NCBI GenBank assembly: GCA_949840955.1
Contig: CATKXV010000002.1
Coordinates: 62,001-126,000 of the forward strand
Direction: 5' to 3'
Length of the DNA stretch: 64,000 nt
From: an uncultured Anaeroplasmataceae bacterium
GTDB taxonomy: Bacteria > Bacillota_I > Bacilli_A > Acholeplasmatales > Anaeroplasmataceae
Shown: in pieces, positions 23,223 through 44,532 of the stretch
How the letters are laid out: each line of letters opens with the position of its first letter
How positions within the stretch are numbered: position 1 is the stretch's first letter
Notes under the pieces: generated by a model
Databases searched by the model: none
Told to the model about the DNA's origin: nothing
What the model saw: only the letters and a program-made list of their open reading frames with translations
Translations under genes and position numbers: made by a program

Positions 23223-26200
23223 TTAGCTATATAAGCAATCCTGCTTTTCGATGATCTGACCATCTAATTTTAAATAAATCAACGCTTCCTCTAATCTTTC
23301 TATAGCACGTTCACTCATACGATTATAGCCTAAAAGACTGATGAGCTTTTTAAAACAGCCCTCCTTAGTAATTCCATTACTTTTTCTAACAATCTTATAA
23401 ATTCCATCCTTTAGCTCTAATGGATGAATCTGTTCAATACTTCTGCTGCTTGGAATACGTAGGGGAATTTCAGTAATTGGAGATAAAGATAAGAAATCCT
23501 TATCCCGATAAATCCTCATTTCCTCTAGATCCTTTTCAAAATATTCCTTGACCAATGTGGTTACTTTTGTCCTTCCATACATAAAGCAGATTCGCTTTAA
23601 AAGGTAATCCATATGAATTGGTCCTTCTTCAGATAGAATATATTCAATGACAGCCCTAGGGCTTTTTTGATTATACAGCTTGTGGATCTGTTCTTCTGAA
23701 ATCATAGGATAGCTATCAAATTCATCCTCAATGCTTTCCTCAATTTCTACCAAGAAATCCCGCTTCATCTGGGGCTGCTCCTCCAAACTCGTTTGATTCC
23801 TCAAAAAATGAAGGATTCTTTCCTGTTCTATTTTTTCATTCATTACCCATTGAGTTGAAAATACTCTTATAAATTTCCAACCCAATCTAGAAAGCAATCG
23901 CTCCTGTAAAGCATTCGCATCACTACAATTTCCAATTTGATAGGAGCTTCCATCTAGCATAATTGCAGCCTGATATTCTTGAGTTGTCTTATCTATTACA
24001 GCAATATCTATTTTAAATGCAGATGTTCCAATATTGGTTTCTATGATAAAACCATTTTTCTTTAAAAAATTTGCGATAGAGCTGATCACCCCATCCGTTG
24101 ACATCGGATTGGTTTTTCTTGGGTAGGATGCCTGCTCTGCATATTCTAAATATCGCTTTAATGTTGCAACTCCCACAGATTCTGTTTGATCAAGCTTAAT
24201 ATCTGAGGAACGAATAGAGCTAACAACGCAAAGATTTTCTTTAGCTCTTGTAATAGCCACATTGAGCCTACGTTCTCCTCCAACAGAATTTAATGGTCCA
24301 AAGCGTTGATAAAACTTATGCTCCTTTGTATATCCAAAGCAAATACTAAAGAGAATAACATCACGCTCATCTCCCTGTACGGATTCTAAATTCTTAACAA
24401 AAAAGGGCTCTCTTCCTTCTTTTGTAAAAAAGGCTCTGTTTTCTGGATTATGATCCAGTCGTTCTTCAATTAAATCCATAATTAAATCCGCCTGTGTATT
24501 AGAAAATGCAACAACACCTAAGGACTTATCTGGATAAGTAGCAGCATGCTGAAACACCAAATCTACAACATATTTTGCCTCAGTCAGATTGGTTCTTGCC
24601 TTTACCTCATAGGTTCCCATTACAAAATGAAAGTCAATTCCAAAGCCAGGCTGATGCTTTTTCGCCTGTGGAATGGTAATCAATCGATCATCATAGAATT
24701 CCTGATTTGAAAATTGTATGAGCTCCTCACTTTTACTACGATAATGGTAATTTAATCTTTTTGTAGAAAAAACTGTACTTCCCTTATCTAAAATAGATTC
24801 CATATCATTTTCGTAGTCATCCTCATCCTCTATCATACTAGAAAAGAAGCTAGAAGGTGGCATTTGCTTACTATCTCCTATGATGATACATTGTCTTGCT
24901 CTATAGATTGCTCCTAAGGCATCCCATGCAAAAACCTGAGATGCTTCATCAAATATAACGGTATCAAATAAATTTAGTTCACTATTTAAATAGGTTGAAA
25001 CAGATAAAGGACTCATTAAAAAGACAGGCTTGATTTCTAGGATTAAATCAAATATTTCTTCTAATAAAAGTCTTATCGGCTTCTGCTTTCTATTTTTATT
25101 ATATTCCTTTACTAAAACAGAAAATTTCGTTCCAAGCATAATACTTTCATCTGGTCTTTGATTGGATAGCTTAGAAATAATAAAGGCCTTATTGGCTTCT
25201 AAATGTGTTTGATCTAGCATCTTAAAGTCCTCTACAATCGATTCAATTCCTAATCCAGCAAATTGCTGAAATATAGGCTCATGCTCTAGCTCATAAAGAA
25301 TATTAGCCTGCCAAAAGGAAGCCTCATAAATTAGACTAAGCTTCTTCATATTCAGCCTTTGCTCAATTGCCTGATCCAATAAAGGAATCACCTGATATTC
25401 TTCTAATTCCTTTAAAATGGAAAGCCTTTGTGTATGAGCATCTAGCAAATCAATGGAATCCACCATATCCTTAAGCTTTAGCATCAATTCATCTATATTT
25501 CCATCAATCAAATGAAGTATCTCAGCATCAAAATGCTTCATATACTCCTGTATAGAAAAAGAGCTAATCCTTTTAAATTGAATGACAATATCCATCAGAC
25601 TTTTTTTCAAGGCTCCATAGCTTTCCTTTGTTAAATCCAATGAAAAAGGTAAATCCTTTAAGCTAATCGCATCCTGATATAAAACATCCAATTCAAAGCT
25701 ACGGAAATCCTGTGGTAATACTTTTTTTATTTTTTGGAGGGATGCTAGGTTTTTCTTATATTCAATAGCCTCCTTGAGCTTTAAAAGAATATCCTTGTCC
25801 TTCATTTTGAGCTTTGTGTATATTGATAAATCCTTTTTTGCTCGATGATAGTTCATAGATAGCCATTTGAATTTCTTTTGGCATAGCTCTTCAAATGCAT
25901 TGGTAAATTCATTTAAAGATTCCATTTTCAATATTTTTAAATCAAAAAACTGATTCAAGGTTGAACTTGCGATATAGCTGCTTCGTTTTCTATAGATTTC
26001 AATTCTTTTACATAAAAGCTCTCTTTTTTCCTTATTCAAATACTCGGGTAAAAAAGAATTTAATTGGATAAGGGAATCCAAATGGGGTATAGCCTCAATG
26101 ATATCCTTATAGCTTTCTAATTGAAATGGTAAAAGCTTCATTATAGCATTTTTTAAATTGGAAAGCTCCTTATAAAAAGTATATAATTTTTCTAAATCCT

Positions 26201-27647
26201 GTTTAGCTTCAAATTTTAGATAGCTAAAATCCTTTGAAATAAATCCATAAAAGGGTCCCTTATGATAATCATAGCCTAAGGAGCTAGATAGCTTTGCATA
26301 TAAATCCAATTGAGAGCATACCTGCTCTAAAGTAGAAACAGATAAGGCTTCAATGTTTTGGATTGGGTAAAGAAAATCCGTTCGTTCTACTTTTAGATAG
26401 GAAGAATAAATTTCATACATGCTTTTGCTAACACGTTTTATAGGCTGATGAAGCTTTGTCCGATATTCCTCTAATATGGAACTTAAATATGCATATTTTC
26501 TAGATAAATCTTCTGCATCATGCTGAATATCATATTTTGGAAGAATCGCTGTTTTATATAATTCATCGATAAATTCCTTTTTATTTGCTTTATGAGAATG
26601 TAATTCAACAGCAAAGCTATCTAAGCCTGCTCTTCTTAAATTTTCATAAACAACATTTAACGCTGCCTGCTTTTCGGAAACAAATAAAACCTTTTTCCCA
26701 TTTCCTATTAAGGAGGCTATCATATTGGTTATGGTTTGGCTTTTTCCAGTACCAGGAGGTCCTTGTAAAACAAAGGATCTTCCCTTTACAGCATAATCAA
26801 TAGCCTCTAGCTGTGACTGATCTGCATCCACCACAGGATAAATCGGAAGATTATCCTCTTCTATAGGCTCTGTAGTAGTTTCTCCTAGCAAATTTCTTAT
26901 ATTGCCATTTTCTAGTACAATATTTGCATGATTTCTTAAATCATTAAACATATTCATTTTTAAAAAGGAATAAATACCTATGGACATGGTATTCAAAAGC
27001 CTAAGCCCGTGCTCTGACAATGTACTGGATACTAAGCTCAAGTATTCTTGTAATACATATACCGCTTCATCATAATCAGGTAAATCGATTTTATATTCTT
27101 CCTTTAATAAATATTTCAGCGTTGGATTCAATATAATTTCATCCTCAGCCTCTTTAAGCTTAAAGCTTCCCTGCTCATATGACAAATCGATTGGAATTAA
27201 TAATAAAGGAGCTAAATAGCTTTCGTTTTTTTCGCTATATTCCACCATACAAAATGTCATATATAATGTATTTATACCCTTTTCTAGCAGCGTGTTTTTA
27301 TATTCTCTTAAGAGAATTTTTAAAACCTTATTCAAAGAAATCCCTTTTTTATAGCAAAGCAAATCATTAGGTCTTAATAAATTTTTTGTTATATCCCTTA
27401 CCTTACCAATAGAATATTCCTCTACTGAGTCTCCTGTAGCATCAATGGTCTTTTGATATTTTTGTAGCACAGAATCTAAGGAAAAAATAGAAAGCACTAT
27501 TCCTGAGGTTACTTTATCAAAAATAGTATCCATAGCCTCATTATGAATCTCAATACTACGATATCCCGTCTGTTTATAATTAATTAATCGATTTCTTTTT
27601 CCCAAATCTAATAAATGTAAGCTGATATCCTTTAACCTTTGTTCCAC
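23223..27647 (-). CDS. DUF4011-type superfamily 1 helicase with Vsr-like nuclease domain and DUF3320 tail
   Basis: 1474 residues. The DUF4011-like N-terminus contains LDLGKRNRLINYKQTG. SF1 helicase motifs: Walker A QGPPGTGKSQT near 299, Walker B VIFDEASQV near 900, GDSKQMPPSSFF, HYRS, VQGDERDVILFS and NVAITRAKENL. Then a REase_MTES_1575/Vsr-like domain near 1220-1290 (SAFKIDIAV ... AIMLDGSSY ... LGWKFIRVFST) and a DUF3320-like end (ILSEEGPIHMDYLLKRI). In the nuclease motif the usual Glu of IE(C/L)DG is Met, so it may be inactive. Start: GTG at 27647, preceded by AGGTGGTGA. Relatives occur in housekeeping and in defence contexts; here it is not near recognisable defence genes. Confidence 0.85.
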   Translation of the reverse strand: MEQRLKDISLHLLDLGKRNRLINYKQTGYRSIEIHNEAMDTIFDKVTSGIVLSIFSLDSVLQKYQKTIDATGDSVEEYSIGKVRDITKNLLRPNDLLCYKKGISLNKVLKILLREYKNTLLEKGINTLYMTFCMVEYSEKNESYLAPLLLIPIDLSYEQGSFKLKEAEDEIILNPTLKYLLKEEYKIDLPDYDEAVYVLQEYLSLVSSTLSEHGLRLLNTMSIGIYSFLKMNMFNDLRNHANIVLENGNIRNLLGETTTEPIEEDNLPIYPVVDADQSQLEAIDYAVKGRSFVLQGPPGTGKSQTITNMIASLIGNGKKVLFVSEKQAALNVVYENLRRAGLDSFAVELHSHKANKKEFIDELYKTAILPKYDIQHDAEDLSRKYAYLSSILEEYRTKLHQPIKRVSKSMYEIYSSYLKVERTDFLYPIQNIEALSVSTLEQVCSQLDLYAKLSSSLGYDYHKGPFYGFISKDFSYLKFEAKQDLEKLYTFYKELSNLKNAIMKLLPFQLESYKDIIEAIPHLDSLIQLNSFLPEYLNKEKRELLCKRIEIYRKRSSYIASSTLNQFFDLKILKMESLNEFTNAFEELCQKKFKWLSMNYHRAKKDLSIYTKLKMKDKDILLKLKEAIEYKKNLASLQKIKKVLPQDFRSFELDVLYQDAISLKDLPFSLDLTKESYGALKKSLMDIVIQFKRISSFSIQEYMKHFDAEILHLIDGNIDELMLKLKDMVDSIDLLDAHTQRLSILKELEEYQVIPLLDQAIEQRLNMKKLSLIYEASFWQANILYELEHEPIFQQFAGLGIESIVEDFKMLDQTHLEANKAFIISKLSNQRPDESIMLGTKFSVLVKEYNKNRKQKPIRLLLEEIFDLILEIKPVFLMSPLSVSTYLNSELNLFDTVIFDEASQVFAWDALGAIYRARQCIIIGDSKQMPPSSFFSSMIEDEDDYENDMESILDKGSTVFSTKRLNYHYRSKSEELIQFSNQEFYDDRLITIPQAKKHQPGFGIDFHFVMGTYEVKARTNLTEAKYVVDLVFQHAATYPDKSLGVVAFSNTQADLIMDLIEERLDHNPENRAFFTKEGREPFFVKNLESVQGDERDVILFSICFGYTKEHKFYQRFGPLNSVGGERRLNVAITRAKENLCVVSSIRSSDIKLDQTESVGVATLKRYLEYAEQASYPRKTNPMSTDGVISSIANFLKKNGFIIETNIGTSAFKIDIAVIDKTTQEYQAAIMLDGSSYQIGNCSDANALQERLLSRLGWKFIRVFSTQWVMNEKIEQERILHFLRNQTSLEEQPQMKRDFLVEIEESIEDEFDSYPMISEEQIHKLYNQKSPRAVIEYILSEEGPIHMDYLLKRICFMYGRTKVTTLVKEYFEKDLEEMRIYRDKDFLSLSPITEIPLRIPSSRSIEQIHPLELKDGIYKIVRKSNGITKEGCFKKLISLLGYNRMSERAIERLEEALIYLKLDGQIIEKQDCLYS

Positions 27648-27699
27648 AAAAATCACCACCTATTTTTTATTATACCATTATCTACTCAATTTTAAAGAA

Positions 27700-27749: not shown

Positions 27750-28595
27750 CTATGGATTCACCATATATAATATTCCAATTGTCCCTTGTCCACAATGAGA
27801 TGAGATTACACATCCTGCAACCGTACAAAGAATAGGTGTATCCCCTAAAAATTTAGATATCTCTGCTTTAATATAATCACAATAATCAAATGCCAAAGAA
27901 TGGGTAATTAAAACAACATCTCTATCTAATCTTGGCAAATCATTTTTAAGCTGTTCTATCATTACATCTAATGCAATTTTCATTTTTCCATGAGGCTTTT
28001 TTGCTACATGCATTTTACCATCTCTAACAGCTATAATTGGCTTTATTTTTAAAAGAGTTCCAAATATCTTGGCTAAGCTTGAGCATCTACCACCCTTATA
28101 TAAATAGTCCATACGCTCTATTGCAAATTGAGATAAAACTCTTTTATTATCCTGCTCTAAAGCCTCTGCAATTTCCTTTGCAGATTTCCCTTCATCTCTA
28201 TATTTACACGCTTTTAAAACAAGAAGCCCTATTCCAGTAGAAAGATTCATAGAATCAACAACAAAAATTTTTTCTTCATTGACCTCTTTAGCGGCAAGTA
28301 CTGCATTTTCATAGGTTCTAGACATTTGCTTAGATATGCCTGTAAAGATGATTTCATCACCCAAATCCACATATTTTTGAAAAACATCTACAAAGCTTTG
28401 GAAAGGAATTGCAGCCGTTTTGGGTAGCTCATTTTTTTCCTCTACCAGCTTATATAGCTCAGGTGTTGTAATGTCTATGCCATCCTTAAAGGATGAATCG
28501 GAAAAATTAACATAAAGAGGTAATACCTCAATATTATGCTGTGCAATCGTTTCTTGATCTAAATCATTTGTGGAATCTGTAATAATATGAATCAT
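27750..28595 (-). CDS. DegV family fatty-acid-binding protein
   Basis: 281 residues, full length. N-terminus MIHIITDSTNDL with the family's lipid-contacting DST/DSx motif, PFQSFVDVF near 60, FTGISKQMSRTYENA near 85 and GTIGILYMV at the end. DegV proteins (FakB in the fatty acid kinase system) bind a fatty acyl chain for phosphorylation by FakA. No fakA is visible here. Single-gene unit between two terminators. Confidence 0.92.
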   Translation of the reverse strand: MIHIITDSTNDLDQETIAQHNIEVLPLYVNFSDSSFKDGIDITTPELYKLVEEKNELPKTAAIPFQSFVDVFQKYVDLGDEIIFTGISKQMSRTYENAVLAAKEVNEEKIFVVDSMNLSTGIGLLVLKACKYRDEGKSAKEIAEALEQDNKRVLSQFAIERMDYLYKGGRCSSLAKIFGTLLKIKPIIAVRDGKMHVAKKPHGKMKIALDVMIEQLKNDLPRLDRDVVLITHSLAFDYCDYIKAEISKFLGDTPILCTVAGCVISSHCGQGTIGILYMVNP

Positions 28596-28709: not shown

Positions 28710-30635
28710 TTATAGCCAATTATCTAAAATATCTTCCTTATGAATTTGGTATTTTCCCTTATGATTTTGCTTTGTAAATTCATAAAGATATTGATTTACT
28801 CTTTTTTTATTGTCTGAGGTTATATCAAAATCAAAGGAGATTTCATAGTTCAATCTAGAAAGTGCTTTTTCATAAAGGTAATTTAAATTTGAACTTGTAT
28901 TCATATAATTGGAAATTTCCTCATCAAAAAAGGAATCCTCTTCTATAATCTTATCCTGAAAGCCTATAAATTTTTTATCCTGTAGGCCTTCCACAATAAC
29001 AATAACATGGTTCAATTGAACTAGTCTAGATTTTTGATCTGTGTAAAATCCATTTTTGATACAATTATAAAGAAAGGAGCTAATATTTCCACTTGCCTCG
29101 TGAAAATTTTTCAAAACAAGAATAGAGCTTGGATAGGCTAAAATATGCTTGGATAAAATCCCCTCATCCTCATAGCCAATATACCCTGGAGGTGCTCCTA
29201 TCAGGCTGGTTAGCATAAAGGAGTCCTTATAGCCACTCAAATCAAGGCTCAAAACCGCTTCATGACCGATATTGAATATTTCCTTACAATCTGTAACCAA
29301 ATCCTCTAAGCCCTCTTTTATGCCCTGATATTTCAATTTTAATAGAGGCTGCTCATCTAACAAATGATTGGAATACAGCCATTTATATTTTTCTAAGCAA
29401 GGATAATGAAGGGTATAGGAATCTTTCATTATTTTATTTCCTAAATAGGTTTGAATGGTTAAATCAACATCATCCTTATTCACTTCTTTTTTATGTAAAA
29501 TGGAAGCGGATGCAAGCATATCATCCAAAATATCAATACATTTATCGGGTCTAAATTTATTGATAATTGACTGGTTGGATTCCTTTACCAAATATTTTAA
29601 AACCTCATCATTAATCGTAACCTGATGATATTTTTCATAATTCGGACGTATTCCAAATAAAATATCTTCTGTTTCCTGTACCGTTGGTTCACTTACAAAA
29701 ACCGTTTGGAATCTTCTTGATAAGGCCTTATCCTTTTCTATCGTCTTATGATATTCCTCTAAGGTTGTAGCCCCAATCAGCTTGATTCCATTTCGAGCTA
29801 AAAGCGGCTTCAGCATATTGGCAACATCCAAATTTCCATCCGTAGTAGCCGCACCAATAATTGTATGGATTTCATCAATGAAAATAATCACATTTTTTCT
29901 ACTACCAATTTCTTTTATAAATTTATCAAAGCGTTCCTCAAAATCTCCACGATACCTTGTTCCAGCAAGCATTGAGGTTAAATTGAGTGCTAATATAGAA
30001 ACATCCGATTTTTCCTGAACAAGCTTTTGAGCATAGCCTTCAACAATAGCTGTTTTCCCTACACCTGCGTTTCCAATTAAAAGTGGGTTGTTTTTATACT
30101 TTCGATGTAAAATAACATCCAAGCGTCTTAAATATTCACTTCGATCTACAAAGGTATCTAGCTCTTCATTTTTAGCCTCTTTCGTGATATTTCTAACAAA
30201 TGATATTTCATTCGTATCCTGATGATCAAAATCATAAATGTCCCTTACATCCTCAATAAGCTCCTCAATACTTAAATCAAGTGCCTCTAATATAGAACAA
30301 GCAATCGTGTTTTTATTCATTAAAACAGCCATAAAAAGATGCTCTTCTGATATTAAATTATCCCCTGAAAGAAGCTTTGCTTGATGTAAAATAGCTTCTA
30401 AGGAAGAATTATATTCTCCAACATCCTTCCGAAGGATAAAAATATCCTTTGTTTTTTCCTCTATTTCTTCTTTGGTAATATCATATTCATCTAACAGAAA
30501 ATGGCATAAGCTATCCTCGGTTTCATACATCGATAAAATTAAAAATTCACTACCCATTGTTTTTACATTGTTTTGCAAGGAATACTTCTTCACTAAATCA
30601 AATACCTGTTTCGCTCTAGCATTTAATTCATCCAT
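28710..30635 (-). CDS. ClpC/ClpA-like AAA+ unfoldase with a degenerate second ATPase domain
   Basis: 641 residues; ClpC proteins are usually about 800. Clp_N double repeat at 1-145. D1 is intact: Walker A GNAGVGKTA near 190, pore loop GTRYRGDFEERF, Walker B IIFIDEIHT near 255, and sensor/Arg-finger region LIGATTLEEYHK...LSRRF. No large middle domain. D2 lacks the Walker A segment altogether and its Walker B is SILVLKNFHEA where DEIEKA is expected, yet it keeps the substrate pore loop PPGYIGY near 480 and an IGF tripeptide (KKFIGFQDK near 556) where ClpP-docking loops sit. So it probably hydrolyses ATP only in D1. GGAGGGG precedes the ATG. Confidence 0.87.
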   Translation of the reverse strand: MDELNARAKQVFDLVKKYSLQNNVKTMGSEFLILSMYETEDSLCHFLLDEYDITKEEIEEKTKDIFILRKDVGEYNSSLEAILHQAKLLSGDNLISEEHLFMAVLMNKNTIACSILEALDLSIEELIEDVRDIYDFDHQDTNEISFVRNITKEAKNEELDTFVDRSEYLRRLDVILHRKYKNNPLLIGNAGVGKTAIVEGYAQKLVQEKSDVSILALNLTSMLAGTRYRGDFEERFDKFIKEIGSRKNVIIFIDEIHTIIGAATTDGNLDVANMLKPLLARNGIKLIGATTLEEYHKTIEKDKALSRRFQTVFVSEPTVQETEDILFGIRPNYEKYHQVTINDEVLKYLVKESNQSIINKFRPDKCIDILDDMLASASILHKKEVNKDDVDLTIQTYLGNKIMKDSYTLHYPCLEKYKWLYSNHLLDEQPLLKLKYQGIKEGLEDLVTDCKEIFNIGHEAVLSLDLSGYKDSFMLTSLIGAPPGYIGYEDEGILSKHILAYPSSILVLKNFHEASGNISSFLYNCIKNGFYTDQKSRLVQLNHVIVIVEGLQDKKFIGFQDKIIEEDSFFDEEISNYMNTSSNLNYLYEKALSRLNYEISFDFDITSDNKKRVNQYLYEFTKQNHKGKYQIHKEDILDNWL

Positions 30636-30875
30636 GGTTACCCCTCCTCATTGATTTATTATATGCGATAAAATCCTTTTACATACGCTTGATTTTTTAC
30701 AATCGTATTAAATCAAAAAGTATCGACATAGTATTCCATTTTACTAATAGAGGCTATTCCCTTGCATAAAGAAGAAAAGACTTTCTTCCTGTTCTAGATG
30801 TAACGATAGTTTCGTTTAAAAAAACAATAACCACAAAATAAGTATTGTAAAGGCAGAAAGACGGGATTTAACATT
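30636..30875. other. Intergenic region upstream of the ClpC-like gene
   Basis: 240 bases. The minus strand has TATAAT at 30658-30663 (no good -35) and GGAGGGG before the ClpC-like ATG. I see an AACGA-N5-TCGTT inverted repeat near 30799-30813 and a weak GAAGAAA/TTTCTTC hairpin near 30766-30788 that might end the upstream lipoprotein transcript. No CtsR or CIRCE heat-shock operator was recognised. Confidence 0.35.
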
Positions 30876-32929: not shown

Positions 32930-33727
32930 TTATACGTAAGGATTGTTTTCTGGATCACGATAAACGCGTAATCCATCATTTAAATTCCGTATATCCGAAA
33001 AAAGTTCAGCTGACATTTCAAAATTATCAGTGAAATTGGTTTTTATTCTATTCACACTTTTGGACTTAACCAAAGGAATAATTCCCTTTTTTAGAGCCCA
33101 TGAAAGAATTAAATTAGCCACGGTTGTATGATGCTTTTGAGCAAGAACTTTGAGGGTTTCATTTTCAAAAACCAATCCCTTAGCAAACAATCCATAGCCT
33201 ATCACCTCAATATGGTTGGCTCTACAATATTCTATAAAGACCTCCTGCTGCAAAAATGGATGAACCTCAATTTGGCAGAACATTGGAGGTATTTTAGCAT
33301 CCTTTAAAAGCTTATCTAAATAATATAATGTAATATTGCAAACCCCTATAGCCTTACAATATCCATTTTCATAAAGATATTCCATCCCTCGCCAGGTATC
33401 TAATAAATCCTCATATGTCCTTGGCATCCAATGAATAAAATAAATATCCAGATAGGATAATCCCAAGCGCTTGAGACTTTCCTTACATTCCTCTATGGTT
33501 TCCTTATAGCCCTTTCTTTTTGCAAAAAGCTTTGTACTAACAAAAATAGACTCTCTACTTATACCACTATCTTCTATCGCCTTGCCTACTTCTCTTTCAT
33601 TTTCATATACTGAGGCAGTATCAACGAGTCTATATCCTGTTGTTAAAGCACTAGAAACACACGTATAGGTGTCGGCCCCTTCCAAAAGGAAGGTTCCGAT
33701 ACCTATGAATTTTTTTTGATTTTTCAT
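32930..33727 (-). CDS. Aldo/keto reductase of the carbohydrate operon
   Basis: 265 residues from ATG 33727. Tetrad residues visible: Asp and Tyr in RLVDTASVYENEREVG, Lys in VSTKLF, His in IYFIHWM; cofactor site PLVKSKSVNRIKTNF. The start overlaps the stop of the upstream beta-helix gene as ATGA; the upstream frame to 33754 is inside that gene. In the middle of a sugar operon it may reduce a uronate or keto-sugar released by the lyases. That is inference from position only. Confidence 0.85.
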   Translation of the reverse strand: MKNQKKFIGIGTFLLEGADTYTCVSSALTTGYRLVDTASVYENEREVGKAIEDSGISRESIFVSTKLFAKRKGYKETIEECKESLKRLGLSYLDIYFIHWMPRTYEDLLDTWRGMEYLYENGYCKAIGVCNITLYYLDKLLKDAKIPPMFCQIEVHPFLQQEVFIEYCRANHIEVIGYGLFAKGLVFENETLKVLAQKHHTTVANLILSWALKKGIIPLVKSKSVNRIKTNFTDNFEMSAELFSDIRNLNDGLRVYRDPENNPYV

Positions 33728-35940
33728 TCGTTTGCAAATATGATGCAAGGCCAAATAGATTCTGCATTACCAATCATATTTCGTACACTAGAATATGCAG
33801 CATCCATAGTTTCATTTGTCATAATAATTGTAAAATTATTGGATTTTAAAGTGTTTTTCATATAATCTGTTATATCTATATAATATGTTAAGAAGGATTC
33901 ATTCACAGCTACACATTCAAAATCTGTAATTAGGACACATTCTTGATTTGGATCATAAATCTTTGCTTCATATGGATAAGAGGAGATTGGATATTCTCCT
34001 GTTGGATCCCAGCTTAATGCTGGGTTGTTGGTTGGATTATTGATATAAGGTGCATTTCCCCATGTCAATTCTCCTGCTTCCCATTTCAAATCCTCTTTTG
34101 CCCAGAAAAAGAAATGCTGCTTTGCACTCTTTGAGGTTGTCGTGATTCGAATATATACCTTTGAGGAGGAGTCAAGTAAGGAACGGTCAATGGTATATTC
34201 CTCAAAAATACAACGATTGAATAATGGTTCATCATGAGAGCCTTTAAAATAATAATACCCTGTAGGATTAATGGTGCTTTCATAATTCCCTCGATTGATA
34301 TTTCCTTCCTGAGTAGGATAAACTACTGTTCCTTCTACAGGATCAAAATAATTTGATTTTGGAGGTAATACAAAGGAATCCTTATCTGATACTATCGCAT
34401 TTGTACAATTTTCAAACTGATTATTTTTGATTTTGGTACCTTCCTTATAGGTCTCAAAATACATAGCAGTTTTAACATTTTTGATGGTATTGCTTTGAAT
34501 ATCAAGAGCATAAACTCCAACGGAAGGATCATTCCAAACATAGGAATAGAATGCAGAAATTCCTGTACTATCTCCACCAGCATTGGAAACCTCATTATTT
34601 CGAATGGTGGTATTTGGACCATATGTAATACGAATTCCAGTAGATCCATCCTTTAAATTCTTAAATACATTATTATAAATTTGAGTATCTGGTGTACCAT
34701 AGGATACCTGAATCCCTCCTAAGGCATTATCAATTTCATTTCCATAAATGATATTTCCTGGTCCTGTTGCATCATGGGTTGAGCCTGGATTTCCTAAACC
34801 AATTCCTGTCTTTGCAACATTAGATACCTTATTTTTCACAATAACATTTAAAAATTCATCCTCACCATGCAAATCTAAAGGCTCATCCTGACATCCATCA
34901 ATTGTATTGTTGTATACCAAATTATTATGGGTAACATAGGATAAAATAATCGCATGACGTAAATAAGGTCCCTTCAATGTATTGTTTGCAATATAATTAT
35001 ATCTAGAGTCTGTTGTAGAGCCTATCATACTGAAGCTTTCAAAGCCATTTCCACTAAGCTGAATACCATATCCTGCACCGCTTCCACCTAAATCTGTAGC
35101 ATCAGAAATTTCACAATCAATAACACTACAATCCTGAGTTTTCTTAAGGAGTACGGCATTTTCCTGGAAATAGGAAATCTTACAATTCTTAATAACAACA
35201 TTTTGAGTACTTTCAATAGGATCCGTATTCATAACTGCAATTTGCGTATTTGGCGCATATTGATTTCCTTCTGGATTGTTTTTACTTGTGCTTAAATCTG
35301 TTGGCATCTTATCCTCAGGAACCTCAGCAGTAAAGGTTAAATCACTAATGGTTACATTAGAGGCATTCATAACTGCTAAAGCTGCTGTAGATTTATTTAA
35401 ATTGTTTTCTGCTGAAAACTTGGATACGAGAACCGTAGATTCAGCCCCTGATCCCTTTATATTTACACCACTTGTATATAAATAAATATGGGCAAAATAA
35501 GGACTACTTAGGGTATTGGAGGTGAAATAATATCGACCTGCTGGAAAATAAATGGTATCTCCTTCAGTAGCAGAGGCAATCGCTTGTCTAACTGCATTCG
35601 TATTATCAAATTCCTCATCATTGGCTTTAGCACCAAACATAAGAACATTTATTCTATTTCCAGAGGCTTCATTTTCCTTTGGAAGCTCATGAATGCTTCC
35701 ATCGGTATTATAAAAGCCTGGCTTGATATAATCCTTATTATGCTCCCAATCGCCTTTATACTCATAATTGAGTCCATCCGTATAATTCGGATCTAAGGAT
35801 GCATCAATTCGTATATCTTGATCCACGTCATTTGTTCCATTATCATCTAATGTACCCTTATCCTGAGGCTTTTCCTTTGTACAGGAAACAAGGGTAACCA
35901 CCGACAATAAACATAAAAATACACTTGCTAATCGTTTCAT
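33724..35940 (-). CDS. Surface lipoprotein: right-handed beta-helix (pectate-lyase-like) plus C-terminal beta-sandwich module
   Basis: 738 residues. Lipoprotein signal peptide with lipobox LVSC near residue 20, a short linker, then a Pectate_lyase_3-type entry segment (INVLMFGAKAND near 100, TIYFPAGRYYF near 135), and Asn-rich beta-helix rungs to about 560 (NVTISDLTF, NVVIKNCKIS, NIIYGNEID, TTIRNNEVSN). The last 180 residues resemble the DNRLRE/CBM96-type sandwich (KVYIRITT, ELTWGNAPY, DITDYMK). Likely a surface polysaccharide lyase, epimerase or hydrolase; the catalytic residues cannot be named. Paralogue of 35957-37510, 16 bases downstream of it. Confidence 0.82.
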   Translation of the reverse strand: MKRLASVFLCLLSVVTLVSCTKEKPQDKGTLDDNGTNDVDQDIRIDASLDPNYTDGLNYEYKGDWEHNKDYIKPGFYNTDGSIHELPKENEASGNRINVLMFGAKANDEEFDNTNAVRQAIASATEGDTIYFPAGRYYFTSNTLSSPYFAHIYLYTSGVNIKGSGAESTVLVSKFSAENNLNKSTAALAVMNASNVTISDLTFTAEVPEDKMPTDLSTSKNNPEGNQYAPNTQIAVMNTDPIESTQNVVIKNCKISYFQENAVLLKKTQDCSVIDCEISDATDLGGSGAGYGIQLSGNGFESFSMIGSTTDSRYNYIANNTLKGPYLRHAIILSYVTHNNLVYNNTIDGCQDEPLDLHGEDEFLNVIVKNKVSNVAKTGIGLGNPGSTHDATGPGNIIYGNEIDNALGGIQVSYGTPDTQIYNNVFKNLKDGSTGIRITYGPNTTIRNNEVSNAGGDSTGISAFYSYVWNDPSVGVYALDIQSNTIKNVKTAMYFETYKEGTKIKNNQFENCTNAIVSDKDSFVLPPKSNYFDPVEGTVVYPTQEGNINRGNYESTINPTGYYYFKGSHDEPLFNRCIFEEYTIDRSLLDSSSKVYIRITTTSKSAKQHFFFWAKEDLKWEAGELTWGNAPYINNPTNNPALSWDPTGEYPISSYPYEAKIYDPNQECVLITDFECVAVNESFLTYYIDITDYMKNTLKSNNFTIIMTNETMDAAYSSVRNMIGNAESIWPCIIFANE

Positions 35941-35956
35941 TCTTTCATTCCTTTCT

Positions 35957-37510
35957 TTATTTTATTTTGTTATTCTCTTGATGCGTATTCGGTCCATTAT
36001 TGATATAAATCCCTGTTGTACACGCTTCAATTGTATTTTTAATTACCTGAGTATACTGAGTTCCTCTTGTAATGGTTATACCATACTTACATTCGATAAA
36101 GGTATTTTCGTATACCACATTTCCATAACCACTTTCATCATGGCTTGACCCTGTATTTCCAAGACCTAAGCCTGCGCCTCTTCTAGAGCCCTTGGCATAG
36201 TTTTGAATAAAGAAATTCAAAAACTCATCTTGTCCATGAACATCAAAGGCATCATCTGCTGAATCTGTAACCCTGTTATTATAAAATAAATTATTGTGGG
36301 TAACATAGGACAAAATAATACCATGACGTATATAAGGGCCTACTACCGTTACATTTTCTATAACGTTATAGCAAGAATCTAGATTTGTATCAACATACTT
36401 AAAATATTCATGCCCATAGCCTCTAATTTCAATACCATAGCCAGCGCCTCCGCCCCCTAAATCAGTTGCTTTTGTAATGATGGAATCCTTGATTTTACAA
36501 TCTCTGGTACAATAAAGTCTTATTCCATCATATTGAAAATACTCCACATATACATCCTCTATCAAAATGTTTTTTGCTATAGTGGCAAGCGTGTTGTTAT
36601 ATACAACAATCCCAAAGGCAGGGGCATATTGGTTTCCTTCTGGATTATTTATCCCTGTATTGTTTATATCCTTGGGCAGGCAGGAATCATCAGTATTTGC
36701 CGAAAAGCCTAAGGAGGATATCGTAGCATCAGACATATTTCCACACACGACTGTTGCCGTTTTTTTGCCAATGGCCTTATCGACATACTCTTTATTCTTA
36801 AAATTAGAAACCAAAATGGATTCGTTTTTCCCTTCACCCTTGAAATGAATCCCCGCCTTTAGCTGGATATGAGCATAATATGGAGATGTACAGCTGGCTG
36901 ATGAAAAATAATATTTGCCTTTGGGTACATAGACTTCATCCCCATAGCTTGCAGCAGCTATCGCATTTTGAAAGGGTAGCATGTTATCAAAGGATGGGTC
37001 ATCTGCCTTTGCTCCAAAGAGCTTTACATTTATTTTTTTGCCTGTAGATGGTAATACGGTAAACTCCTCATGCTTAGAGCCATCCTTATTATATAACCCA
37101 GCATAGAGATACCCCTTTGAATAGGGATATTGTTCTGCAATCTCTTCCTTCATTTGAAATTGATATCCTAAAGCGTGGTTTATATCCTCTGGGAGTCCCT
37201 TTACTATGATAGAAAATTCTTTATTTCTTTTTTCATTTTCTAAGGATAAGCTTGCTGTAAGAAGAATCGTTTCATCCTGTTTTCCCCTGGTTATTTTTCC
37301 CAATGTGGATAGAATTTCCTCATCACTAGAGGTCCACTGGATTTCAACCTCATGTAAGCCTATTTCTGGTAAAACCAAATCCTCTTCTACCATTTCTGGA
37401 AGTACAAGATTCTCATAGGCCTCATCTAGCATTTGCTGGATGGGATTTGCCTTGGATGTACAGCCAGCTACCAGAAAAAGAGCTAAAATCAGAAAAAGTA
37501 ATTTTTTCAT
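35957..37510 (-). CDS. Surface lipoprotein: atrophied Ig domain plus right-handed beta-helix
   Basis: 517 residues. Lipobox LVAGC near residue 17. An Ig-like domain of the atrophied bacterial Ig type spans about 35-110 (EIQWTSSDEEIL, GKITRGKQDETILLTASL), then a beta-helix (INVKLFGAKADD, EVYVPKGKYYF, NILIEDVYVEYF, NVVYENTF, NNGPNTHQENNKIK). The helix half is closely related to 33724-35940, sharing GFSANTDD/LTFTAE, ATDLGGGGAGYGI and YVTHNNL blocks, but this protein ends without the C-terminal sandwich. Probably one of a pair of cooperating surface enzymes or glycan-binding proteins. Confidence 0.8.
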   Translation of the reverse strand: MKKLLFLILALFLVAGCTSKANPIQQMLDEAYENLVLPEMVEEDLVLPEIGLHEVEIQWTSSDEEILSTLGKITRGKQDETILLTASLSLENEKRNKEFSIIVKGLPEDINHALGYQFQMKEEIAEQYPYSKGYLYAGLYNKDGSKHEEFTVLPSTGKKINVKLFGAKADDPSFDNMLPFQNAIAAASYGDEVYVPKGKYYFSSASCTSPYYAHIQLKAGIHFKGEGKNESILVSNFKNKEYVDKAIGKKTATVVCGNMSDATISSLGFSANTDDSCLPKDINNTGINNPEGNQYAPAFGIVVYNNTLATIAKNILIEDVYVEYFQYDGIRLYCTRDCKIKDSIITKATDLGGGGAGYGIEIRGYGHEYFKYVDTNLDSCYNVIENVTVVGPYIRHGIILSYVTHNNLFYNNRVTDSADDAFDVHGQDEFLNFFIQNYAKGSRRGAGLGLGNTGSSHDESGYGNVVYENTFIECKYGITITRGTQYTQVIKNTIEACTTGIYINNGPNTHQENNKIK

Positions 37511-37513
37511 AGA

Positions 37514-39499
37514 TTATTTTTTCGTTCGATTATAGGCAGAACGATAGATTTCAATATACTCGTCTATATTGGCATCCTCATAAGCCTTTTTAATATCCGC
37601 AACGGATTTAACACTGTTTTTATCTGATCTGATATAAAGATAGATCATACTGATTTGATCATCTCCAATGGATAAAGTAGATAATCTTGCAGATTCCTGT
37701 CGAGTTAAGGAATAGCACGGTGCAGATAGCTCTAATAATTTCGATGGCTTATTATATCCAAGCGTTAATACACCACATTCCTCATATAGATTATAGCCCT
37801 CCTGTGCTTCCTTCGTCATATTTTGATATTCAAAGCCAATATCGGCTTTATATCCAATCGCCATACGAATTCCCATAAATTGTTGTCCAAAGGTTGCCAC
37901 ATCTCCATTGGTATAAATTTTAGATTGCTCTAAAAGCCATGAGGATAGTGTTGGAACCTTATCGCCACTAGGAAGTGTGTATAAATTATCAAAGTCTGCC
38001 ATTACGCCTGGAATTCCAAAATTCTGTACATTGCTACCAAAATCTGTAAAGAAGAAATTCATAAGCTCTAAAGCCTTTTCTAAGGCCTTTCCTGTTGTAT
38101 TCTTAGAAACAGCCCAGCCATCAATCATAACCGTTCTAGGGATTTCAATGTAATGGTAAAATTGATCATCATGCATTCCTTCTAGCTTCGTAACAGGTGG
38201 AAGCATCGCTTTAACAACACCCGTAGGAGAGCTTGCAGCCGTTGATGGAATAAAATCAAAGGTCATAAAGCCTAATTGCTTAACCGTTGATACTCCACTT
38301 GAATTAACACTTAAATCAGAAGAATAGAAAATGGAACGGAAATCGGCACTATTGTTTGTATCATCATAATCTGAATTGATAAGCCCTTCACTAAAAATTT
38401 GCTTCAAATAATCAAAGGCCTCATAAACCTCATCCTGATAAAAGCTATATTGTAGTGTGTCATTTTCATCAACAAACCATAGACCTGTATAGGTGTTGGT
38501 TCCATATACTCTTGTTCCACCAAAATAATTGATTAGCTTAAAAATTTCTGCTCTTTGATTCTTTGTTCTAAAGAAAAATGGAACAATCTCACAGCTTCCT
38601 GTTTGTCCTGTTGTAAGCTTAAATAAAGTGTTCGGATGAAGCTTCATCACACGCCATAGGGCTACAAGCTCATCCATATCATATAGAGCTGTTTCATTTA
38701 AGAAAAGATCACTTCTTTTCTTTAAATCAGGGTAGGTTTCATCAATATAACGAATAAGAGTTTGTCTTGCAACCTCCCCAGTAAGATTCCCTGATACAGC
38801 TGCTTGATTTTGAAGCTCTACTACATTGGTACTCTTTCGTGCCTTAGCTCCCTTCCAATAGCCAGCATAGGCTACCTGTAAGCTTTCTGTTTCTGGTAAA
38901 ACTTCATTAGAATCTAATAAAGCCTCAATCCAGTTGTTTCTTCCATAAAAAACCTTAGAAAATTCATCAAGCTCAGCCACATAAGGAATATTATAAATTC
39001 CACCATCATAGGCTGTAAGCTGCTGCTTAATTAATGGATATTCATCTAAATATTTCATGAAGTCAGGAAGCTGCTCCTTATAATCAAGCAAATTCACAAG
39101 CTTTCCTCTTGCTCCATACTCCATAAAGGTTTCAGCAACATTTCCTCCATAAATATCAGCATCCTCAAAGTTGGTTGCTGCTGCAATTTGAATCATATTT
39201 GCTGCTGTTTGACCCTGAACTGTTACATCCTTGATGTTGATATTCAAATGATTTCCAATATAATTCCAAGCAGGTTTAATTTGTCCATTGGTATAAATTG
39301 AACCATCTGGAAGTGTGATTGGAGTTCCTGTGTTATAGGTCAATGTCTTTAAGGCATTTCCTGTTGCAAAATTTATTTTCAATTCTGTTTTACTTGTATC
39401 ATCGGGTAAATTGGGATCCACAGGAATATTTTTTCTACAGCCACTGAAGGTAAATAGAGCAATTCCTGCTAAGCATACTCCTAAAATTTTTTTGTACAT
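37514..39499 (-). CDS. Large extracellular solute-binding lipoprotein of the sugar ABC transporter
   Basis: 661 residues. Lipobox TFSGC near residue 20. It belongs by size and layout to the large LplA/YtcQ-type binding proteins that work with LplB/YtcP permeases; residues such as FYGRNNWIEALLDSNEVLPET and the C-terminal domain support this. It presumably captures oligosaccharides and feeds the permeases at 45469-47310. Unusually, it is encoded about 6 kb downstream of the permeases, between nagB and the beta-helix genes. Four bases after the nagB stop region. Confidence 0.85.
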   Translation of the reverse strand: MYKKILGVCLAGIALFTFSGCRKNIPVDPNLPDDTSKTELKINFATGNALKTLTYNTGTPITLPDGSIYTNGQIKPAWNYIGNHLNINIKDVTVQGQTAANMIQIAAATNFEDADIYGGNVAETFMEYGARGKLVNLLDYKEQLPDFMKYLDEYPLIKQQLTAYDGGIYNIPYVAELDEFSKVFYGRNNWIEALLDSNEVLPETESLQVAYAGYWKGAKARKSTNVVELQNQAAVSGNLTGEVARQTLIRYIDETYPDLKKRSDLFLNETALYDMDELVALWRVMKLHPNTLFKLTTGQTGSCEIVPFFFRTKNQRAEIFKLINYFGGTRVYGTNTYTGLWFVDENDTLQYSFYQDEVYEAFDYLKQIFSEGLINSDYDDTNNSADFRSIFYSSDLSVNSSGVSTVKQLGFMTFDFIPSTAASSPTGVVKAMLPPVTKLEGMHDDQFYHYIEIPRTVMIDGWAVSKNTTGKALEKALELMNFFFTDFGSNVQNFGIPGVMADFDNLYTLPSGDKVPTLSSWLLEQSKIYTNGDVATFGQQFMGIRMAIGYKADIGFEYQNMTKEAQEGYNLYEECGVLTLGYNKPSKLLELSAPCYSLTRQESARLSTLSIGDDQISMIYLYIRSDKNSVKSVADIKKAYEDANIDEYIEIYRSAYNRTKK

Positions 39500-39502
39500 C
39501 CT

Positions 39503-40270
39503 TTACTCCTCCTTAACTAATGAATAAGAATCCTCATCAATATATAGCTCTGAATCTTTACAGGTTCTTAATATACTTGCAGGACAATTCGGTGAAATTT
39601 CTTTTAATAGTGTATTATATATTGCATATTTTTTTGTTGGTCCCGGAACAACAGCAACCTTATTTTTACAAGCAAGTAGAGGTGGAATGGTTATGGTTAA
39701 AGCCTGCTTAGGTACTAAATCTAAGTGGCTAAAACAGCCATCATTTACCTGTTGATTTCGACACATATCATCCAATTCGACAATTTTCACTGTCAAAGGA
39801 TCATTAAAATCACAAAAGGCTGGGTCATTAAAGGCCAAATGTCCATTTTCACCTATACCTAAGATTACCAAATCAATTGGCTTTTCATTTAAAAGCTTAG
39901 TATATAACGCCAAATCCTCTTCTACTGTTGGGGTTGTCCCACCAAAAGGATACCAATGTCCCATAGAAACGTGATTTACAAGTCGATCCTCTAAAAACTT
40001 TGTAAAGCTCTGAGGTGCATTTTTATCAATTCCTACATATTCATCCATATGAAAGCCCGTTACTTTTGACCAATCAATATCGGCATCTTTAAGATAGGCA
40101 AGCATCTCATTTTGAGATGGTGCACTAGCAAAGATAACTCGAGCCTCCCCATTTTCCTTGATTGCATTTTGAATGAGCTGCTCAATTCTTTTTCCTGAGG
40201 CGATTCCCATTTCATTTCTTGTTTTGCTGATGTGAACCTCTAGCTCACCATATTTTTTAATTTTTTCCAT
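39503..40270 (-). CDS. nagB: Glucosamine-6-phosphate deaminase
   Basis: 255 residues from ATG 40270. It retains family motifs: VTGFHMDEYVG (catalytic Asp) near 70, and LGIGENGHLAFNDPAF (catalytic Asp/His/Glu) near 130. It converts glucosamine-6-phosphate to fructose-6-phosphate and ammonia. AAGGAG lies nine bases upstream; another ATG at 40276 is too close to it. The start overlaps the upstream lyase gene by 14 bases. With NagA it forms the amino-sugar end of this operon's pathway. Confidence 0.92.
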   Translation of the reverse strand: MEKIKKYGELEVHISKTRNEMGIASGKRIEQLIQNAIKENGEARVIFASAPSQNEMLAYLKDADIDWSKVTGFHMDEYVGIDKNAPQSFTKFLEDRLVNHVSMGHWYPFGGTTPTVEEDLALYTKLLNEKPIDLVILGIGENGHLAFNDPAFCDFNDPLTVKIVELDDMCRNQQVNDGCFSHLDLVPKQALTITIPPLLACKNKVAVVPGPTKKYAIYNTLLKEISPNCPASILRTCKDSELYIDEDSYSLVKEE

Positions 40271-41402
40271 CTTCATTTTCTCCTTCAAATAATTTTTCCA
40301 GTAAGATATATCCCCAATGCATCGGGGTTTTTTCAAAAAGAATTTCTGTTTTTTTATGCAATATTTTTGAAAACAAATATAAGATATAATATCCTCTATA
40401 TGGATCAAATTTCTTAATCTGCATATGCTCCCATGTATTGTGCTGATAATGAGGCATCACATAGGTATATGCTCGAAGTAAAGCAGCATTATCCTTAAAG
40501 TCATAGCCCTGTTCTACGAGTAAGCAAGCACTTTCCAATAGCATTTTCAAGCCCATAGTGGTATAGCTTTTGGTTTTCGTACGGACAAGCTCTAAGGGTA
40601 GCATTCCATCCTCATTAATTTGAAATTCCATACGCTGAATTAGCTTAGTATAATAGAGATCTACTATGTCCTTTTCTTCCTCAATAAATTCTGAGATATT
40701 TAAAATTAACAAATCATATAGAGAACCTTGATTGTTGAGTCTTTCTCCTTCTATTCTTCCTTGATTTGAGGTCAATAGCCACTTTAAAAATTCCTGATGC
40801 CAATGCTTCATACCCAAATAGAACTCCTCAGGTAATAGATTCTCCTGATGAAGTATTTTTAATAGCTGTAATGCATAAGCATAGCTTGCAGCATAGTCTA
40901 TGATTCCACCAGGCTCTCCGTCATTTACTCCTGGAATGCACTGGGCATATCTCAAATTTGGATTCATTTTTGTTTTCTCATCTAAAAACCAAAATGAATT
41001 GTATTTTATGATGCAGTCCATGTACTTCTTTTCTTTTGTAAAATAATAAAGTAATGCACTTACATAGGTTATATAAGCTAAAACTCTTAAGGATTCCTTA
41101 TCCCCATGAAGTGCCTCAGGATTATCAATTCCATCTCTTTCTACATAGGGAAGCCCATCTGGAGTATTCGGATTCGGCCAGTGATATATAGAACAGGACA
41201 TATAGTCGTGTATATCCTTACTTGGTGCACAATGCTTTTTTTCTGTTACACTATGCAATCCAAAGGATATGCCCTCCTCTAAAAGCTGATCGAGTTGCTC
41301 GATATCTACTGACTTTATTCTTTTTTTGATTTGTTCTAAATCCTTTTTTTGAAATAAATATAAATTATTGACAATTTCATCAAAGTATTCTTCTATTCTC
41401 AT
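40257..41402 (-). CDS. Alginate-lyase-family (PF05426-like) protein, paralogue 1, cytoplasmic
   Basis: 381 residues, no signal peptide. It matches the alginate-lyase (alpha/alpha toroid) pattern: SIYHWPNPNTPDGLPYVERDG near 65, MNPNLRYAQCIPG near 140, and LELVRTKTKSYTTM near 285 with the Arg and the catalytic Tyr spacing of A1-III lyases. At the Asn-His dyad it reads LNNQGSLYD, so the His is replaced by Gln. Starts immediately after the stop of paralogue 2. Expected to beta-eliminate or bind uronate oligosaccharides after import; activity uncertain because of the His change. Confidence 0.72.
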   Translation of the reverse strand: MRIEEYFDEIVNNLYLFQKKDLEQIKKRIKSVDIEQLDQLLEEGISFGLHSVTEKKHCAPSKDIHDYMSCSIYHWPNPNTPDGLPYVERDGIDNPEALHGDKESLRVLAYITYVSALLYYFTKEKKYMDCIIKYNSFWFLDEKTKMNPNLRYAQCIPGVNDGEPGGIIDYAASYAYALQLLKILHQENLLPEEFYLGMKHWHQEFLKWLLTSNQGRIEGERLNNQGSLYDLLILNISEFIEEEKDIVDLYYTKLIQRMEFQINEDGMLPLELVRTKTKSYTTMGLKMLLESACLLVEQGYDFKDNAALLRAYTYVMPHYQHNTWEHMQIKKFDPYRGYYILYLFSKILHKKTEILFEKTPMHWGYILLEKLFEGENEDGKN

Positions 41403-42512
41403 TTACCCTCCATAAACATCTGCTAATAAAATATATTGTAATGTATTAGACTGTCTCATATTAAAGCCCTTTACTCCAAAATACTTTTTCGCAATGTAGT
41501 AAAAATAGTTGTCATATTCCTCAGTAAAGGGAACTCTTTGTGGATATGGCCAGGCTTGAATTGAATTATGCTCGCTATAGTATTGAACTGCTGTCTTTAA
41601 TAGGGGATACTTTAAATCCAAACAAAGAATTTTTCCTATTTCTATAAAAAGCTTTAAATTCATAAAATAATAGCTTCTAGAATTTACTCTTCTTGTTTCT
41701 AAGGGCATATCCCCATTTTCTAAAATTTGCTGTTTCATACGGTCAGCATAGCGACTTTTAATCGATATCATCATATAAAAATCATCTACAAAAACAGAAA
41801 TAATTAATAAAAGATAGTCATATACAAGAGCATGATTGTTTGTACATTCCCTCATTTCCTTACCAAAGGGAGATTCAATCAACCAAACCTCAAATTGTCT
41901 TAGCCAACCACCAAGCTTCAAGCAAAGCTCATACTCTAGTAGCCCTTGTCCCTTAAGACACTGCAATACAGCCAGAGCATATCCAAAGGTAACACCAAAA
42001 TCGATAATTCCCCCTCGCTGTCCCTCATTGATACCAGGCATAGCCTGCCCATGATTTAAATTTGGATTCATTCTCGTTTCTTTATCAATAAAGAAGGTAT
42101 ATAGGTGTCTTTTTAAGCGTGTATAATATTTCTTTTCTCTTGTAATATAATACAAAATTCCTAAGTAATATACGGCATATGCCATTTTTCTTAAGGCTAG
42201 CTTATCTCCTTCAAGATGCTTCGGATTTTGATAGCCATCTCTTTTAATATAGGGTAGCCCATCCTCTGTATCAGGGTTTGGCCAGCTATAAATAGAAAAG
42301 GATTCATAATCATGCTTATCCTGAACCAATACCAAATTCTTTTTATAGGTTACACTTTGATAAGGAATTTGCATTGCCTCCTCTGCCAATTTCTTTAACT
42401 GCTCTAAATGCTCTGTGCTGATTTTTCTTTTAATTTCTCTCAGTTCATCTTCTCCAAAGGCATATAAAGCATTCACCGGCTCCTTCATATATTCCTCAAA
42501 GGTCACTTGCAT
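41403..42512 (-). CDS. Alginate-lyase-family (PF05426-like) protein, paralogue 2, cytoplasmic
   Basis: 369 residues, no signal peptide. Same blocks as paralogue 1 (SIYSWPNPDTEDGLPYIKRDG, MNPNLNHGQAMPG). Here the dyad is intact (CTNNHALVYD near 225) and LETRRVNSRSYYFM near 285 supplies Arg and Tyr. It thus keeps the residues used by A1-III alginate lyases. Start overlaps the upstream membrane gene by 17 bases, GGAAGG close to the ATG. Likely substrates are imported uronic-acid-containing oligosaccharides; alginate itself is not implied by the family name. Confidence 0.74.
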   Translation of the reverse strand: MQVTFEEYMKEPVNALYAFGEDELREIKRKISTEHLEQLKKLAEEAMQIPYQSVTYKKNLVLVQDKHDYESFSIYSWPNPDTEDGLPYIKRDGYQNPKHLEGDKLALRKMAYAVYYLGILYYITREKKYYTRLKRHLYTFFIDKETRMNPNLNHGQAMPGINEGQRGGIIDFGVTFGYALAVLQCLKGQGLLEYELCLKLGGWLRQFEVWLIESPFGKEMRECTNNHALVYDYLLLIISVFVDDFYMMISIKSRYADRMKQQILENGDMPLETRRVNSRSYYFMNLKLFIEIGKILCLDLKYPLLKTAVQYYSEHNSIQAWPYPQRVPFTEEYDNYFYYIAKKYFGVKGFNMRQSNTLQYILLADVYGG

Positions 42513-42984
42513 CGCTCCTTCCCTGTAATAAATTCAGCATGAATTTATATTTAATAAAATAAAATATATAATAAACAAAAGTATAAAGAAAGGCATATCC
42601 AAATGGCTCTACAGGAAAAGGAACAGAGGATGGATCTAATCCTCCTATATGGATAATCAGGCGATTGATTCCCTCATAGATTCCAATCACAAGAACAACA
42701 GTTAGAAAAACCTCTATGAAGGCATATACCCACATTTTAATTCTTTGAAAGGATTTCAATTCACTATATTTTTTATGTAAATTCAGTCTTGTCTTAAACA
42801 TGGCTTTAATTATCGTATTGGTAAGTAACAAATCACATATAAAATGGGCTAAGGGTAGTAATAGCAATAGATCTAAAAAATCATTCGCTACACGACTTCC
42901 CCATAAAACAAGATAACATACTAATCCTGAAAACCAAAGTCGAATGAATAAAGCCTTAATCTCTTCCTTGATTGGAATGTCCAT
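42496..42984 (-). CDS. Small membrane protein of the carbohydrate operon (A)
   Basis: 162 residues from ATG 42984 (GGAG eight bases upstream). Four predicted TM helices: about 14-32, 38-55, 90-112, 132-152. No family recognised. It overlaps both neighbours (29 bases upstream, 17 bases downstream), so it is tightly coupled to the transporter and the lyases. Possible accessory component of the ABC importer or of the surface enzymes; no function can be assigned. Confidence 0.7.
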   Translation of the reverse strand: MDIPIKEEIKALFIRLWFSGLVCYLVLWGSRVANDFLDLLLLLPLAHFICDLLLTNTIIKAMFKTRLNLHKKYSELKSFQRIKMWVYAFIEVFLTVVLVIGIYEGINRLIIHIGGLDPSSVPFPVEPFGYAFLYTFVYYIFYFIKYKFMLNLLQGRSDASDL

Positions 42985-43468
42985 TTGCTCTTCTCCTTCG
43001 TATAACGATTTCTGCAATGAACAAACCTATTTCTAAAAAGCTTAATACCAAAGCAAAGATAATAAAATTTATAGAATCATCAATCGCATAAACAATTTTT
43101 ATAGCATCCTCATAGGAATATCCACCATTTAAAGCCGTTTGATAATATACATCTCCTTGCATTAAAACAATATAGGTTATCATGGTTGCAATTGTAATTA
43201 TGAATAAAATTACGGAAAAAATAGAATACTTCCTTTTTTCCTTTAACCGCATAAGACTCACAGCAACTAAGATTAAACCAATCTGATTAATAAAGGTAAA
43301 AATAGCAACAGTTGAGGAAACCTTGTACGCTGCCTCATTATGAATCCTACCAAAGGCTACCTGACATAACGCATTTACCATAGCCAAAAATACCATAATC
43401 TTTTGTAAGGTAAATCCTTCCTTATTGTAAATAATCGTAGAGAATTTGTGCTTAAGAACGCTCATCAT
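42956..43468 (-). CDS. Small membrane protein of the carbohydrate operon (B)
   Basis: 170 residues from ATG 43468 (AGAGGTGAT upstream). Four predicted TM helices: about 19-38, 48-75, 82-108 and 130-160, ending in a basic tail RRRRANGHSNQGRD. Not recognised. Starts inside the end of the ATPase gene (17-base overlap). Confidence 0.7.
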   Translation of the reverse strand: MMSVLKHKFSTIIYNKEGFTLQKIMVFLAMVNALCQVAFGRIHNEAAYKVSSTVAIFTFINQIGLILVAVSLMRLKEKRKYSIFSVILFIITIATMITYIVLMQGDVYYQTALNGGYSYEDAIKIVYAIDDSINFIIFALVLSFLEIGLFIAEIVIRRRRANGHSNQGRD

Positions 43469-44531: not shown

Positions 44532-44532
44532 T

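Follow-up and report, generated by a model that had tools for sequence, protein, structure and literature searches.

A ClpC-type unfoldase with a catalytically dead D2 module, probably a one-motor partner of ClpP in Anaeroplasmataceae and related families

As listed in Table 1, the stretch of DNA analysed here (the window; 64,000 nucleotides), which derives from an uncultured Anaeroplasmataceae bacterium with a 2.1 Mb draft genome that is 97% complete, carries a gene for a 641-residue ClpC-type Hsp100 protein, and reading of the sequence showed an intact frame with an ATG start. Its neighbours are a DegV gene and a gene for a 250-residue hypothetical protein, and in line with the initial annotation, no clpP, mcsA, mcsB or ctsR lies adjacent to it. 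The DegV gene is often kept next to the D2-dead gene within the genus, yet DegV is probably not part of the machine. No convincing CIRCE or CtsR sites were found upstream of the gene. Elsewhere in the window, positions 23223-27659 encode a 1478-residue fusion of DUF4011, a superfamily-1 helicase, an MTES_1575 nuclease and DUF3320, whose domain layout is that of a stand-alone protein of the defence type, and positions 33724-47310 encode a pectate-lyase-like protein, two proteins of the alginate-lyase family and the two permeases and the ATPase of an ABC sugar transporter, likely a polysaccharide-use locus, which is unexpected in an Anaeroplasma relative.

Table 1. Features of the D2-dead gene and its downstream neighbour, in window coordinates
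Feature	Position	Strand	Basis
D2-dead ClpC-type Hsp100 unfoldase, 641 aa	28710..30635	-	ORF, translation, Pfam, 37-module alignment
Ribosome-binding site GAGGAGGGG, 5 bases before ATG	30641..30649	-	Direct sequence reading
N-terminal domain, aa 1-140 (Clp_N match aa 90-132)	30216..30635	-	Pfam, AlphaFold
D1 AAA+ module, aa 145-393, complete	29457..30203	-	Motifs invariant in 37/37
D1 Walker A GNAGVGKT, aa 188-195	30051..30074	-	Motif reading, alignment
D1 pore loop TRYRG, aa 226-230	29946..29960	-	Y228, R229 and G230 invariant
D1 Walker B FIDE, aa 252-255	29871..29882	-	Invariant in 37/37
D1 arginine fingers RRF, aa 307-309	29709..29717	-	Invariant in 37/37
Catalytically dead D2 module, aa 396-641	28713..29450	-	AF2, Foldseek, dN/dS
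Eroded P-loop, beta1-turn-alpha1 without GxxxxGK[ST], aa 432-454	29274..29342	-	Motif absent in 37/37; secondary structure
D2 pore loop GYIGY, aa 484-488	29172..29186	-	G484, Y485 and G487 invariant in 37/37
Walker B remnant, aa 505-510, acidic DE replaced by KN	29106..29123	-	DE in 0/37; N510 in at least 90%
Predicted ClpP-docking loop KKFIGFQDK (IGF), aa 554-562	28950..28976	-	G558 invariant in 37/37; aligned with ClpC loop
DegV-family (fatty-acid-binding) gene, directly downstream, same strand	27750..28595	-	

Pfam searches matched the protein to Clp_N, AAA, AAA_lid_9 (the Clp lid) and part of AAA_2, the Clp_N match (PF02861) comprising one repeat and scoring over the gathering score with an E value of 2e-8. 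Scores against the curated NCBIfam equivalog models of ClpA (336.8 bits versus a cut-off of 993) and ClpB (343.2 bits versus 1232) were far under the cut-offs, and among solved structures the nearest relative was ClpC. The D1 module has all motifs expected of a complete ATPase (GNAGVGKT, TRYRG, FIDE and RRF), as the initial annotation had stated. The D2 module contains no GxxxxGK[ST] sequence, thus no Walker A, and its Walker B position reads LVLKNFHEA, with KN where DE is expected. The GAR sensor 2 and the FLNR arginine motif are absent from the D2 of the members that were checked by motif, and the reduction of the D2 small subdomain, from which GAR has gone, might make the D2 ring weaker. 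When the protein was aligned to Staphylococcus aureus ClpC using phmmer, GYIGY fell on the D2 pore loop and KKFIGF on QRFAGF, the ClpP-docking loop, in agreement with the earlier observation that both elements survive. The stretch between D1 and D2 measures 78 residues compared to 161 in S. aureus ClpC, and judging from this comparison the 83 missing residues are the M-domain and the IGQ segment.

The initial annotation had assumed that the ATPase core of D2 was deleted. The loss of the motifs was confirmed, but the fold is kept: in the AlphaFold prediction the large subdomain of D2 still has its beta-strands and helices, with a beta1-turn-alpha1 at the P-loop position, modelling of D2 alone with AF2 gave a pLDDT of 81.9, and a Foldseek search with D2 alone returned the D2 modules of ClpA and ClpC in ClpP complexes as top matches (E 1e-13). 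The D2 Walker motifs have been erased through substitution and the loss of a few residues. The IGF loop is flexible in the predicted structure (pLDDT <50), as would be expected of a free docking loop.

An orthologue with the same D2 loss was present in nine of the ten other genomes of the host genus, the tenth being 72% complete, and in eight further genomes of the family outside the genus, with identities of 58-83% in the genus and near genera, and 37-43% in distant genera. A class-wide sample of 395 genomes yielded more members, of 640-690 residues, in four families (f7, f9, f12 and f19). In the alignment, five families of the class were represented by 37 complete D2 modules, 18 from the host family and 19 more distant; the member from genome G244, whose D1 Walker A was masked, was left out of this count. 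The D1 catalytic motifs were invariant in all 37, and D1 is the best conserved part of the protein. Both D2 Walker motifs were absent in every module, so that the loss first read in a single translation extends across five families. In the D2 pore loop, residues G484, Y485 and G487 were likewise invariant, as was G558 in the IGF loop, and nearly all members have [IVLMA]G[FYL] at the aligned docking position. Within the host family, pairs gave a dN/dS of 0.03-0.08 over D2 residues 396-560, which indicates purifying selection there, and one pair at greater distance gave 0.13; thus the dead domain has some function.

In a maximum-likelihood tree based on D1 only, all D2-dead proteins formed one clade (98 bootstrap / 91 SH-aLRT), and the nearest relatives that keep a D2 Walker A, from families f11, f14, f17 and f26, fell outside it. 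In two f17 proteins, L183 (genome G483) and L186 (genome G448), the D2 Walker A persists, but the Walker B is degraded and the pore loop of D2 has disappeared; here D2 may be decaying independently, along a second route. Two near-identical relatives from f9 (L172:1489-3414 and L167:1462-3468) diverge sharply in the last 80 residues, with a dN/dS of 0.8, suggesting either a frameshift or a free C-terminal tail.

The gene neighbourhood differs between the host and its relatives. In all 16 other family genomes with enough upstream sequence, hflX is the divergent upstream neighbour, and the same arrangement occurs in members of f9 and f19, bringing it to three families (loci L073-L089, L161, L164, L167, L169 and L171), whereas the host genome has lost it. 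HflX is a ribosome-splitting GTPase linked to heat stress, and its adjacent, divergent gene suggests a stress-proteostasis setting.

The initial annotation regarded KKFIGFQDK as a possible ClpP dock, a suggestion that gained weight from the invariant IGF glycine and from the distribution of ClpP itself. In the host genome, a housekeeping ClpP (ClpP1; L007, G000:C3:83799-84329) is encoded, and its Ser-His-Asp triad is intact. Among 100 genomes of the order, housekeeping ClpP was found in all 18 with the D2-dead gene and in 2 of the 82 without it (Fisher p = 6e-18, a figure that counts genomes as independent and is inflated by their relatedness). The exceptions were G042, in which housekeeping ClpP is accompanied by a fragmentary copy of the D2-dead gene, and G057, where it occurs together with ClpX and a ClpB and without the D2-dead gene. 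When plotted onto a ClpB tree of the family, the gene and ClpP each change about five times, and they agree in four of four well-supported independent contrasts, a number for which the sign test has a floor of p = 0.125. The D2-dead gene and clpP lie on different contigs of the host genome, so their co-occurrence does not reflect one joint deletion. In the families f7, f9, f12 and f19, ClpP was found in 33 of 34 genomes.

Other ClpP-like proteins were also detected. Four genomes without the gene (G002, G041, G046 and G050) have only a second ClpP type, which lacks the YDIYSRL N-terminus. One such protein, at G000:C7:54308-54805 (L111:9282-9842), has an intact triad and adjoins a VirD4/TraG coupling protein, with a similar context in G050; the best PHROG matches of this type are head maturation proteases, and it may be carried by integrative conjugative elements. 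In genus g4, which belongs to the host family, a divergent ClpP directly follows its own 744-residue two-motor Clp ATPase and is itself followed by a 403-residue protein (L090:3920-6740 in G013, and six other g4 genomes, all without housekeeping ClpP), apparently a separate ClpAP-like operon. Genomes G039, G047, G054 and G089 gave only partial or weak ClpP matches.

Which other unfoldases could serve ClpP was assessed in draft genomes, most of the 18 family genomes with the gene being 91-99% complete. None of these 18 contained a ClpX match over the cut-off, and ClpX was therefore rejected as the ClpP partner in the host family; the weak matches covered short ranges and lay in frames whose lengths fit other AAA proteins, and one partial match came from G050, which does not carry the D2-dead gene. 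The small domain that ClpX, ClpB, ClpC and ClpE carry in D2 was also sought in the same 18 genomes, and only ClpB matched, apart from one match under the cut-off in a 779-residue frame of G016. A second, normal ClpC was not found in the host genome, the other Hsp100s being a ClpB of 701 residues (L005:3596-5701) and a 610-residue AAA_2 protein. The latter has a live Hsp100-type AAA_2 domain, and its gene sits in an unrelated operon (L006:1205-7890; G000:C2:21200-27900) that may be a conflict or defence module and also encodes two large unknown proteins, a protein resembling DEDDh exonucleases and an NrdG-like radical-SAM/4Fe-4S activating protein. None of the 41 genomes tested for MecA contained it. 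In f7, f9, f12 and f19, 31 of 34 genomes had ClpX, the three misses being 71-87% complete. Since the host has ClpP and no normal ClpC, ClpE, ClpA or ClpX, the case for a single-motor Clp is stronger than the initial annotation had supposed.

With an intact D1, a dead D2, a retained grip and dock, co-occurrence with ClpP and no alternative unfoldases, the sequences make it probable that the protein is a D1-powered, ClpC-derived hexameric ClpP unfoldase with a non-hydrolysing D2 collar. The partnership with ClpP is strongly indicated by these data, and they point to a general rather than a specialised partner. In such a machine, assembled as a hexamer, the D1 ring alone would burn ATP and thread the chain by the usual hand-over-hand cycle, and the D2 ring, unable to bind or hydrolyse ATP normally, would form a passive collar that aligns the channel. 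The tyrosines of GYxGY would offer a passive grip on the threaded chain, and D2, fixed under D1, would dock on ClpP via the IGF loops. Both the M-domain and the adaptor MecA have been lost. In Anaeroplasmataceae, so has ClpX, and because other ClpA, ClpC and ClpE proteins are absent as well, the D2-dead protein would be the only evident ATPase partner of ClpP, there driving general proteolysis; in the other four families it would work alongside ClpX. As ClpX and ClpP are present in those four families, the simplest history is that a ClpX-bearing ancestor underwent a single decay of D2 and the M-domain, and that the Anaeroplasma line later lost ClpX, so that its ClpP was left with a one-motor unfoldase.

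Several other explanations were considered. Along with its proposal of a single-motor Clp, the initial annotation had named two findings that would speak against it, a sequencing or assembly deletion and orthologues with a full D2. The former is ruled out because the same loss occurs in the independent assemblies of the 18 family members and the 19 distant members, and no full-D2 orthologue was found inside the D2-dead clade, so the single-motor reading has held. A pseudogene, frameshift or assembly artefact could be suspected from a few distant members (G426, G268 and G250) that have no C-terminal tail, but the open frames of around 640 residues in many separate assemblies, the low dN/dS and the single ancient origin reduce its probability to almost nil. 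It is also quite improbable that D2 still binds nucleotide via an unusual site and adds force: asparagine N510 occupies the position of the Walker B glutamate in at least 90% of the modules and the fold is retained according to Foldseek, but GxxxxGK[ST], an acidic Walker B, GAR and FLNR are all missing from the members checked by motif.

Pseudo-enzymes often become regulators, and with its dead D2 the protein might be a regulatory cap, acting as a brake or gate on ClpP with little unfolding. However, the ATPase motifs, arginine fingers and pore loop of D1 are all invariant, and without ClpX, ClpC, ClpE or ClpA in the family genomes such a cap would leave ClpP with no motor, which makes this a very unlikely role as well. 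Somewhat less remote, although still unlikely, is a ClpP-independent chaperone or disaggregase, with D1 remodelling proteins and a vestigial IGF loop. The strong conservation of D1 would fit this, and ClpB-like single-ring chaperones exist, such as human CLPB/SKD3, which retains the other ring. Against it, the IGF glycine is invariant over five families, the gene tracks ClpP1 through the family, and the cell already has a ClpB. Nor does the protein fit the pattern of a ClpB disaggregase, its D2 being dead and an IGF loop being present.

Compared to known systems, the proposed one-motor unfoldase is closest, by both sequence and fold, to ClpC of Bacillus and Staphylococcus (MecA-ClpCP), with which it shares Clp_N, D1, the D2 fold, the D2 pore loop and an IGF-type ClpP loop. 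It differs from ClpC in lacking the D2 Walker A, Walker B and sensor 2, the M-domain and the IGQ segment, and in occurring in genomes without MecA. With the ClpB of the same genome it shares D1 (47% identity), whereas ClpB has two live ATPase sites and an M-domain, and no IGF loop. Double-ring AAA+ proteins with one inactive ring are known from Pex1/Pex6 and NSF, in which the other ring carries the ATPase work. There too, one ring does the work and the other is structural, but these proteins belong to another AAA+ clade, have a different ring inactive or weak, and are not partners of ClpP. E. coli ClpA (ClpAP) is likewise a double-ring ClpP unfoldase without M-domain, whose D1 recognises and threads substrates. 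Judging from the motifs, only D1 should be able to hydrolyse ATP in the D2-dead protein, and since D2 is the principal motor of ClpA and D1 an auxiliary or backup (PMC9663308), this arrangement would be the reverse of the ClpA rule. For the same reason, a machine driven by D1 alone might lack the force to unfold stable proteins and be restricted to less stable ones, a limitation that might suit small genomes. No matching description turned up in the open-access papers searched, among them those on ClpM and degenerate Hsp100s, a weak sign of novelty given that their coverage is incomplete.

It appears that nature made a D2 knockout once, long ago, and the result has been kept under selection in five families. 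With these proteins one can ask how much a single ring is able to unfold, what a pore loop adds without hydrolysis, and whether ClpP can be gated by nothing more than a collar. We lean towards the broader view that a one-motor Clp drives ClpP throughout an ancient branch of the class and that all ClpP proteolysis in Anaeroplasmataceae would be powered by D1, with D2 as a collar, although with less confidence than in the proposed function of the protein itself. If true, D1, an auxiliary motor elsewhere, has become sufficient for regulated proteolysis, and for Anaeroplasma-type gut bacteria the likely sole engine of ClpP proteolysis has been identified.
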